A stretch of 36,385 bases of DNA, taken from the NCBI GenBank assembly GCA_017560205.1, contig JAFYOL010000252.1, positions 1 through 36,385 on the forward strand, read 5' to 3'. Made by a program: the position numbers and the translations under genes. Of this stretch, positions 29,135 to 31,075 are shown one piece after another. Each line of letters opens with the position of its first letter. The first letter of the stretch is position 1. The notes beneath the pieces were generated by a model. The model did not search any database and was not told where the DNA came from. It was given only the letters and a program-made list of their open reading frames with translations. This stretch comes from Erysipelotrichaceae bacterium. Its GTDB lineage: Bacteria > Bacillota_I > Bacilli_A > Erysipelotrichales > Erysipelotrichaceae.

Positions 29135-29161
29135 ATGCCAAAAAGACACTGGAGTAAGACT

Positions 29162-29917
29162 ATGCAAGATTTTTTTCGTTATTTTTTTGATAAAGGGACA
29201 GAACCGGAATTCGCCCTGTTTACCCCTGCTCATTTCATGCCTATTCTTCTTTTGATTGCAGCATTGGTTTTTATCTATCGCAATCAAGATAAAATAAGAA
29301 GTTCCCGCTTTGAGACAAACATTCGCTATGTGCTTGGATTTTCACTGATTATCTGTGATATGTCCTATTACTGGCGTTTATCCGCATGTCCATGGCTGGC
29401 TGAAGGCGTCGTTGAAAACCTGCCTATCGGTGTATGTGCATGGTCCGTGATTTTCTGTGCATTCATGATGATAGGAAAAAGTCAAAGACTCTTTGATATT
29501 GCCTATTTCTGGCTGCTGTCAGGCTCGTTGTTTGCGCTTTTGACACCAACCCCGCTTACTTTTTATGGACCTACCCGATTCAGATATTATCAGTTCTGGC
29601 TGGAACACACACTTGGTTATATCGCTATCTTCTATATGATCTTTGTTCATCGCATGAGACCGAATCTTCGTTCTATGCTTCGCTCATATGCTGCCCTGAT
29701 TTTCATGGCAGTGTTTGCTGCATGGGTCAATTCCATGATTCCTGGAGCTAACTATCTGTATATGGCACGACCTGAAAGTGCTCCATCCATTCTGGACATT
29801 CTGCCTCCGCATTATGGTTTGCGAATCTGTATTATGGCACTGGCAATGACTGTCATGTTCGGATTGGCTTATCTTCCTTGGTATCTCAAAGACCGCAAAG
29901 GTGCTGTAACAAAATAG
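29162..29917 (+). CDS. TIGR02206-like integral membrane protein (YwaF type)
   Basis: A 251-residue protein with about seven membrane segments. The N-terminal FFDKGTEPEFALFTPAHF, the later CAWSVIFCAFMM and LTPTPLTFYGPTRFRYYQFW, and HRMRPNLRS match the TIGR02206/YwaF family of uncharacterised membrane proteins. The ATG at 29162 has GGAG seven bases upstream; an in-frame ATG at 29135 lies almost on the -10 element. No biochemical role is established for the family. It is a single-gene unit with its own promoter and terminator. Confidence 0.75.
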   Translation: MQDFFRYFFDKGTEPEFALFTPAHFMPILLLIAALVFIYRNQDKIRSSRFETNIRYVLGFSLIICDMSYYWRLSACPWLAEGVVENLPIGVCAWSVIFCAFMMIGKSQRLFDIAYFWLLSGSLFALLTPTPLTFYGPTRFRYYQFWLEHTLGYIAIFYMIFVHRMRPNLRSMLRSYAALIFMAVFAAWVNSMIPGANYLYMARPESAPSILDILPPHYGLRICIMALAMTVMFGLAYLPWYLKDRKGAVTK

Positions 29918-29933
29918 TTACAGCACCTTTTAA
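29897..29933 (+). terminator. Terminator of the TIGR02206-like gene
   Basis: AAAGGTGCTGTAAC and GTTACAGCACCTTT form a perfect 14-bp stem with loop AAAATA, overlapping the stop codon. The T-tract is short. Confidence 0.75.
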
Positions 29934-29942
29934 TCATTATAT

Positions 29943-30032
29943 TCAAGCCTGTACAATCAGCTTTCTGAAATGAGATTTAATAGACTGTGTAGAGAAAAGG
30001 ATAACTGCAGAAATAAGAATAGCGTTCAACAT
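29943..30032 (-). CDS. Small 29-residue hydrophobic peptide with its own promoter and operator-like site
   Basis: A short reading frame on the minus strand with an excellent Shine-Dalgarno sequence, AAAGGAGG, seven bases before the ATG. The peptide has a hydrophobic N-terminal half (residues 2-14, LNAILISAVILFS) and a basic C-terminal half (KSHFRK), so it should insert in or lie on the membrane. A consensus promoter (TTGACG, 17 bases, TATAAT) lies at 30078-30106 and a GTTAG/CTAAC palindrome between promoter and ribosome site. No family is recognised. Candidates are a regulatory membrane peptide, a type I toxin, or an uptake ORF of a leader RNA. Promoter, ribosome site, and frame together make chance unlikely. 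Confidence 0.6.
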   Translation of the reverse strand: MLNAILISAVILFSTQSIKSHFRKLIVQA

Positions 30033-30052
30033 ATGATTTCCTCCTTTAATAT

Positions 30053-30068
30053 GTTAGTTATATCTAAC
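30053..30068 (-). promoter_or_regulatory. Operator-like palindrome at the start of the small peptide transcript
   Basis: GTTAG and CTAAC arms flank a 6-base AT centre (ATATAA on the minus strand). It sits at about +3 to +18 of the predicted transcript, a usual place for a repressor site. The TTAG...CTAA arms resemble DtxR/IdeR-type sites, which is only a suggestion. Confidence 0.5.
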
Positions 30069-30077
30069 TTTAATTCT

Positions 30078-30106
30078 ATTATATTCATATGTTTTGATTT
30101 CGTCAA
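30078..30106 (-). promoter_or_regulatory. Consensus sigma-A promoter of the small peptide gene
   Basis: On the minus strand TTGACG (30101-30106) and TATAAT (30078-30083) are exactly 17 bases apart. It is among the best promoters in the window. Confidence 0.75.
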
Positions 30107-30117
30107 ATGTAACGCTC

Positions 30118-30146
30118 ATAAAAAAAGTCTGTTTTTTCAACAGACT
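30118..30146 (-). terminator. Terminator of the yigZ-membrane protein unit
   Basis: On the minus strand AGTCTGTT-GAAAA-AACAGACT is followed by a run of T. It overlaps the stop codon of the 108-residue membrane protein and separates it from the small peptide promoter. Confidence 0.8.
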
Positions 30147-30471
30147 ACTTTTTCATCTTCGCTTCTTTTTCTTTCAGGAAATTCGCTTTCAATGTACCAC
30201 CCAATACACTTCCAAAGAAAGCACAGGCTGCATAAACAATACCATACAGAACTGCAGTTTCATTGAAATACAACAATGCAGATGGCACAAACAAAATACC
30301 GCACATCACAGGAAACAACAGCTCATATCCATATTTCATTCCTGGAAACAAGGAAATCACAAAACATGACAACGGTGCAATCGCCAGCAGATAAAGAATC
30401 AATTCTCCTGTTTCATGCATTGTCAGTGGAAGCAGATAATACACCGCACCAAGTAAAAGATACTTAATCAT
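30145..30471 (-). CDS. Small integral membrane protein of unknown family
   Basis: A 108-residue protein with three to four membrane segments (about residues 3-19, 22-40, 50-68 and 73-92) and a Lys-rich cytoplasmic tail. I do not recognise the family. The ATG at 30471 is preferred over TTG at 30477; AAAGGGTGA lies about eight bases upstream. The start overlaps the end of the yigZ gene by eight bases, so the two are translationally coupled and followed by a shared terminator. Nothing in the sequence indicates a catalytic role. Confidence 0.7.
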   Translation of the reverse strand: MIKYLLLGAVYYLLPLTMHETGELILYLLAIAPLSCFVISLFPGMKYGYELLFPVMCGILFVPSALLYFNETAVLYGIVYAACAFFGSVLGGTLKANFLKEKEAKMKK

Positions 30472-31075
30472 TGGCAATCACCCTTTCCACCACAGTTTCT
30501 TCAAGATGAACAGGCAGATGTTTTCCGCTTGTGCACTCTGAAATCACAGTTTCAATATCTTTTGACTCTGCATAGAATTCCAGAGAAACCATTTCTCCAT
30601 ATTCCTTGTTGATCACATCACAGCTTTTTAAAGTATACTCCATCTTGCCCAATAAATTATAAGGGACAGTCAGGACATAGTGATGCATTTTCATGGTCTT
30701 GGTTTTCTTAGCCAGAGAAATGGATTCTGATACAGAACGGCTGTATGCACGCACCAGACCACCTGCACCCAGTTTAATACCGCCAAAATAACGAACTACC
30801 ACAGCCAATGTATCATGCAGACCACTTCTTTTCAGTGCTTCCAGCATAGGTACACCTGCAGTTCCTGATGGTTCGCCATCATCATTGGAACGTGCCAGTT
30901 CATTGTTTTCACCAATCACAAATGCAGTACAGTGATGAGTTGCATCCGGCATCGCTTTGCGGATACTCTGAATCTTCTCTCTTGCCTCTGCTTCTGAGAA
31001 AACACGCGAAAGAATACAGATAAATCTGCTTTTTTCAATTTCAATGGTATGTGTAAACTCTTCAGCCAGACGCAT
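30464..31075 (-). CDS. yigZ: YigZ/IMPACT-family protein
   Basis: A 203-residue protein of the UPF0029/IMPACT family. The N-terminal domain holds EIEKSRFICILSRV, then DATHHCTAFVIG, and the signature DDGEPSGTAGVPMLEALKRSGL, GGIKLGAGGLVRAYSRS. A C-terminal DUF1949 ferredoxin-like domain follows from about residue 135. Eukaryotic IMPACT inhibits GCN2; the bacterial role is not settled, with translation-related or proline-peptidase-like proposals. The ATG at 31075 has GAGGGGG upstream and fits the family; an upstream in-frame start at 31111 would lie on the promoter. The stop overlaps a small membrane protein gene. Confidence 0.9.
   Translation of the reverse strand: MRLAEEFTHTIEIEKSRFICILSRVFSEAEAREKIQSIRKAMPDATHHCTAFVIGENNELARSNDDGEPSGTAGVPMLEALKRSGLHDTLAVVVRYFGGIKLGAGGLVRAYSRSVSESISLAKKTKTMKMHHYVLTVPYNLLGKMEYTLKSCDVINKEYGEMVSLEFYAESKDIETVISECTSGKHLPVHLEETVVERVIAND

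Follow-up and report, generated by a model that had tools for sequence, protein, structure and literature searches.

A putative iron-repressed membrane micropeptide behind a DtxR/IdeR-type box in a genus of the Erysipelotrichaceae

Introduction

Does a stand-alone frame of only 29 codons encode a peptide that the cell makes, and if so, which signal governs it and on what might the peptide act? This question is raised by a locus on the minus strand of the window, the whole stretch of 36,385 nt analyzed here (contig JAFYOL010000252.1 of an Erysipelotrichaceae bacterium). An earlier note on this DNA had taken the frame for a regulated membrane peptide gene, whose product would regulate a transporter or kinase or act as a toxin, and had seen in its palindrome a hint of a metal-responsive DtxR-type repressor. 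Small proteins repressed by metals are already a known kind, represented by MntS, the Fbp proteins and the PF12669 peptides, and metal-regulated micropeptides nearly escape annotation.

The unit and its signals

The promoter, palindrome, ribosome site and 29-codon frame described in the earlier note were each found at their places. The sigma-70 promoter TTGACG-17-TATAAT (30078..30106, minus strand) matches the consensus at 11 of 12 positions and is kept in the sister species; a promoter scan placed its -35 element TTGACG at 30106-30101 and its -10 element TATAAT at 30083-30078, with a spacer of 17 nt. The putative DtxR/IdeR-type operator GTTAG-N6-CTAAC (GTTAGATATAACTAAC, 30053..30068, a palindrome and thus assigned to neither strand) begins 9 nt past the -10 box, at the expected transcription start. 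It is followed by the ribosome-binding site AAAGGAGG (30040..30047, minus strand), 7 nt before the ATG, and by the frame itself (29943..30032, minus strand), which encodes the 29-residue peptide MLNAILISAVILFSTQSIKSHFRKLIVQA with a hydrophobic N-terminal half and a basic C-terminal half. The hydrophobic stretch is about 14 residues long. An amphipathic helix lying on the membrane surface is therefore a possible alternative to a membrane span, because this stretch is short for a full transmembrane helix.

The unit was said to be cut off from the gene upstream, and an intrinsic terminator of that gene (30145-30477) indeed separates the two at 30126..30146 on the minus strand, with an 8-bp stem, a loop of 5 and a T6 tail; a similar hairpin occurs in one sister species (G002). 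The upstream membrane gene shows a weak match to DUF2651 and has few close relatives (2 loci in the genome contigs). On the other side, an inverted repeat read directly from the sequence, GGTGCTGTAAC-N6-GTTACAGCACC (29900..29927, no strand assigned), is common to the unit and the convergent gene at 29135-29917. It carries a strong T-run on the plus strand only and a weak one on the minus strand, and is the probable 3' boundary of the unit. The unit occurs in a single copy in its own genome (G000, a draft of 1.9 Mb).

The earlier note had also considered these signals better than those of most genes nearby. The promoter was the top scorer within the 3-kb region covered by a consensus scan. Promoter-like sites as a class were no more frequent there than in shuffled sequences (7 vs 8.8). 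Because of this, the promoter taken alone proves nothing about a gene. The unit rises above chance because it is conserved with identical spacing, because its frame appears to be under purifying selection and because its palindrome is apparently the box of a regulon.

Conservation and selection of the frame

Among 60 relatives searched, the micropeptide was present in just two other species, both of the same genus (G001 and G002), and by sequence search the family is restricted to three of the four species of the genus that were examined. The orthologous peptides are 76% and 54-55% identical to that of the window, and 16 of 29 positions are common to all three (MLNAILISAVILFSTQSIKSHFRKLIVQA, MLNAILISAIVLFSTQSIKYQFRKWIAEA and MMHALLISVIVLFSTQSIKKALRRRIAMA). 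A three-row profile run against 273 family genomes recovered the orthologues with E-values of 1e-18 to 1e-21 and found no credible relatives past these three, and the peptide matched nothing in Pfam or NCBIfam. The next profile match (E 1.7e-4) was rejected, as it lies inside a 319-aa frame without a box, and a DNA match in another genome (G045, L009) proved on reading to be merely AT-rich sequence with a ribosome site.

In both sister species the locus is arranged as in the window, between the same membrane gene, which adjoins yigZ in G002, and a patB-like aminotransferase gene. The promoters there read TTGACT/TTGACG-17-TATAAT, the 9-nt gap to the operator is identical, the operators read GTTAGATATA[AG]CTAAC, the ribosome site AAGGAGG is retained and the units finish with the terminator GGCAGGTAYCTGCC-TTTT. 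The gap between the peptide and the aminotransferase gene varies: the window has the convergent gene 29135-29917, of the TMEM164 family (YwaF-like), G002 has a degraded insertion element (L026:3646-4883) and G001 has neither.

A comparison of synonymous and nonsynonymous changes, as proposed in the earlier note, gave dN/dS pairs of 0.12/0.93, 0.33/1.42 and 0.27/1.11 for the three orthologues, a ratio of about 0.13-0.25. Differences by codon position were 4, 3 and 11 and 9, 4 and 14, the third positions being highest, and the aligned similarity stops at or before the stop codon. These values support purifying selection on the frame 30032-29943. We regard the frame as a real translated gene because the unit is conserved at the same locus, the dN/dS is low and the similarity fades at the stop codon.

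The same data bear on the idea that the RNA is the product that matters, namely a small RNA of the RyhB/FsrA/IsrR type, about 150-170 nt long and repressed by iron, which would pair with the mRNAs of iron-using proteins. Iron-sparing small RNAs are typically short, monocistronic and controlled by an iron-type box, as in the case of IsrR (PMC9410917), and in mid-frame some synonymous positions are the same in the three species. However, third codon positions change most and the similarity fades at the stop codon. The fold predicted for the RNA does not exceed those of shuffled sequences in stability (z +0.6), no Rfam family was matched, and the tiny peptides of other genera described below repeat the coded feature, a hydrophobic half and a basic tail, and not the RNA sequence. 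No conserved RNA, structured or unpaired, came to light beyond the reading frame in the orthologue alignment, the fold or Rfam. We therefore consider a functional small RNA unlikely; a dual-function RNA, in which the peptide is perhaps a second function, is possible but not supported by these results.

A box shared with iron genes

A translated peptide being the favored product, we turn to its control. A scan for further copies of the palindrome near metal genes, another suggestion of the earlier note, did find them at feoA/feoB and at other metal genes. Exact GTTAG-N6-CTAAC sites are rare in the four examined species of the genus (1, 4, 6 and 6). Several of them stand before iron genes: before feoA and feoB in G002 and before feoB in G001, with three more at feoA/feoB in G003, where a DtxR-family gene lies alongside. 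In the genome of the window itself, feoAB is fused, and the copy of the box upstream of it has one mismatch. Further exact boxes in the genus precede a membrane-HMA protein, an ABC exporter/G3E GTPase pair and a two-component system.

The box was not confined to the genus. Within 20 nt of a GGAGG, it was found in 161 of 273 family genomes, with at least 150 matches among those listed vs 3 for a reversed control, and a second box pattern had matches in 54 of 56 genomes vs 11 control matches. Taking the first frame behind the box as the readout, with several gene names assigned by our own reading of the sequences and not by a database, the box-led genes across the family encode FeoA, FeoB, flavodoxin, a siderophore-type binding protein and permease, ZIP transporters, CydDC-like ABC exporters, DUF3793 and HMA proteins. 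Genes of FeoB-associated Cys-rich peptides also stand behind the box in several members of the family. From this content we read GTTAG-N6-CTAAC as the box of an iron-type DtxR/IdeR regulon in the family, and the presence of the box at its promoter supports the membership of the micropeptide gene in this regulon. The hint of a DtxR-type repressor is thus supported, with the box preceding feoA and feoB in sister species and, together with flavodoxin, family-wide, and with a DtxR-family gene in the genome; so is the reading as a regulated membrane peptide gene, with its frame apparently under selection and a regulon box at its promoter. Our literature search found no paper on DtxR operators in Erysipelotrich bacteria.

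Two of the box-associated loci have features of their own. The G3E-type GTPase bears a long tandem His/Cys/Glu-rich repeat, HHHHDEHCECGCHDHE (L055:2914-3855 on G000:C185 and L051:1914-3053 on G002:C26). The intergenic region that separates it from the divergent ABC exporter pair contains box-like palindromes. The response regulator/histidine kinase pair has one or two exact boxes upstream (L054:2718-2793 on G001:C194 and L052:240-255 on G002:C81), and a ZIP-like transporter gene lies near it in G001.

A similar appearance would be expected of an antimicrobial peptide, or of a membrane toxin from a type I toxin-antitoxin system. Like this peptide, toxins of the Fst and TxpA types are small and combine a hydrophobic half with a basic tail. 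However, the consensus scan detected no antisense promoter-like site, with none on the plus strand between 29136 and 30612; the gene is single in its genome, occupies a stable chromosomal locus in three species, is apparently governed by an iron box and lacks a Pfam or NCBIfam match. The toxin alternative offered in the earlier note thus found no backing, and we regard it as very improbable.

The regulator and its metal

For the preferred reading, a peptide gene under metal control, a regulator is needed. The genome encodes a DtxR-family protein of 126 aa (G000:C182), which matches Fe_dep_repress and Fe_dep_repr_C well above the cut-off and has MntR, SloR, IdeR and DtxR as its closest solved structures. 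The boxes of IdeR (TTAGGTTAGSCTAACCTAA) overlap with either the start of transcription or the -10 element, and a single IdeR dimer can occupy two CCTAA repeats that are separated by 4 bp (PMC10317159). The 14-bp core TTAG-N6-CTAA of our box corresponds to this single-dimer site, TTAGG-N4-CCTAA, and likewise lies at the transcription start (PMC10317159). In contrast to the IdeR system, there is one dimer site here instead of two overlapping ones, and the regulator is short (about 122-126 aa) and has no SH3-like domain.

The iron selectivity of IdeR depends on Met10 and Cys102, whose counterparts in MntR are Asp/Asn and Glu (PMC10317159). The regulator of G000 has an iron-like Cys (DEACKVEH) at the position of Cys102 and a manganese-like Asp (EDYLE) at that of Met10. 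The content of the regulon points to iron as the sensed metal. Nevertheless, the regulator may sense manganese or both metals, because the ligand residues are mixed and the regulon contains a ZIP transporter and a metal-binding ABC protein.

Similar tiny peptides in other genera

At least five further families of tiny peptides, of 26-34 residues and built of a hydrophobic half and a basic tail, stand directly behind the box in other genera. They are represented by MYTQFTLAALLVAGFVTLRRTVRQKAGLQ (G072) with MSIILACVLVIGFIQLRTFIKRQARKQ (G119), MSEIIAIGMTAALVSVITIGGPAMRRKYLGRK (G118, with orthologues in G113 and G124), MVNLIILASVSAGTAAFLHLVKRACHNRLTRYRI (G114), MEMHKLFAWATVFCFVMTMYTGYRRR (G090) and MEYILNSVVVMSVSLGMIYMNIYVKRMCKAFLAQ (G245), the last lying directly before a flavodoxin-like gene. 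The three orthologues of the G118 family have a box each and dN/dS values of 0.15, 0.23 and 0.03, which indicate that this family, too, is under purifying selection. Judged by E-value, the G072 peptide lacks clear relatives; its match in G119 (E 0.85) has its own box, a ribosome site and a frame of 27 aa. The hydrophobic-half/basic-tail build was seen in 6 of 10 tiny frames behind boxes vs 4 of 65 control frames (Fisher p = 1.8e-4), with thresholds of hydropathy and charge that were chosen after the cases had been seen. Other tiny frames were dropped: that of L144 resembles the start of a broken methyltransferase gene, that of L148 is not hydrophobic, that of L200 has a GTG start and no basic tail, and that on the plus strand of L185 came from the G072 box read on the opposite strand.

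Alignments of the window peptide to these tiny peptides were no better than those of shuffled sequences, and we do not claim them as homologues. The first 24 residues of a box-led membrane-HMA protein (G264) align with the window peptide without gaps (score 43, which none of 2000 shuffles reached; the protein was one of ten targets compared), and this protein has a weak PF12669 match over the aligned stretch. This hints that the window peptide may be a cysteine-free relative of such a membrane module. In box-led proteins at L343:74-433 and L081:4234-4590, a membrane segment that resembles the FeoB-associated peptides and bears a CC motif is linked to a heavy-metal-associated (HMA) domain.

That the frame serves a downstream gene as its leader peptide or attenuator, as its shortness, its strong ribosome site and the G245 peptide directly before a flavodoxin-like gene might suggest, is hardly credible, given that the next downstream gene in the window is convergent, that a terminator lies directly 3' of the unit in G001 and G002, with an insertion element beyond it in G002, that the amino-acid sequence is apparently under purifying selection and that the fold is unremarkable.

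Discussion

Taken on the comparative evidence, the product is likely an iron-repressed (or iron/manganese-repressed), translated membrane micropeptide, which is probably made when iron runs short. When iron is plentiful, a metal-loaded DtxR-family repressor would occupy GTTAG-N6-CTAAC and block the near-consensus promoter. When iron falls, the repressor would leave the operator, allowing a short mRNA (about 150-170 nt) to be produced and efficiently translated. The N-terminal half of the peptide may then insert into the membrane, and its basic C-terminal tail would be expected to stay in the cytoplasm, following the positive-inside rule. Most likely, the peptide would bind and adjust a larger protein that takes part in the response to iron starvation, be it one of metal transport or another membrane protein. 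In view of the regulon as well as the FeoB-associated peptides, the leading candidate is the ferrous-iron transporter FeoB. However, the unit does not adjoin feo genes and the partner is therefore a guess; we put forward a metal transporter in this role only tentatively.

The FeoB-associated Cys-rich peptides (PF12669) are likewise tiny single-span membrane peptides with a basic stretch after the span, and several in the family lie behind the same box. They differ from the micropeptide, which has no cysteine in any of the three orthologues and is found not beside feoB but between the yigZ-linked membrane gene and the aminotransferase gene. By test, it is not a member of PF12669, as none of the three orthologues matched at E 10 and the positive control gave 1.5e-12. 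For the Cys-rich peptides themselves, translation is unproven (PMC8749426). MntS of E. coli is also a small protein from a metal-repressed promoter under an MntR/DtxR-family regulator, and was proposed to act through inhibiting the exporter MntP (PMC4361602). Likened by description only, it differs in that the regulon here points to iron instead of manganese and that the micropeptide has a hydrophobic half. FbpA, FbpB and FbpC of Bacillus subtilis are Fur-controlled and linked to the FsrA RNA, whereas the box here is of the DtxR type and the peptide is half hydrophobic. The Fbp proteins are likewise small, and are basic proteins produced on iron starvation for iron sparing (PMC3574147, PMC8464778).

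The box works as a finder, in that the first frame behind GTTAG-N6-CTAAC reveals several unlisted peptide families of gut bacteria, tied to iron starvation through the regulon. If such micropeptides act on FeoB or a sister transporter, this would bear on what replaces FeoC outside the Gammaproteobacteria, a question left open for the Cys-rich peptides (PMC8749426). It is conceivable, if rather doubtful, that the Erysipelotrichaceae use mostly cysteine-poor micropeptides of 26-34 residues behind the iron box, diverse in sequence and alike in build, as fast-evolving partners of FeoB or of another membrane protein of iron starvation. In this they would stand in for FeoC or for the Cys-rich FeoB-associated peptide.

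In several members of the family, the box was also found before genes resembling class I fructose-bisphosphate aldolase and phosphoglycerate mutase (L124, L150, L140, L147, L149, L168 and L183). These are apparently metal-saving substitutes, which would mean that metal-saving swaps in glycolysis are under the control of iron.
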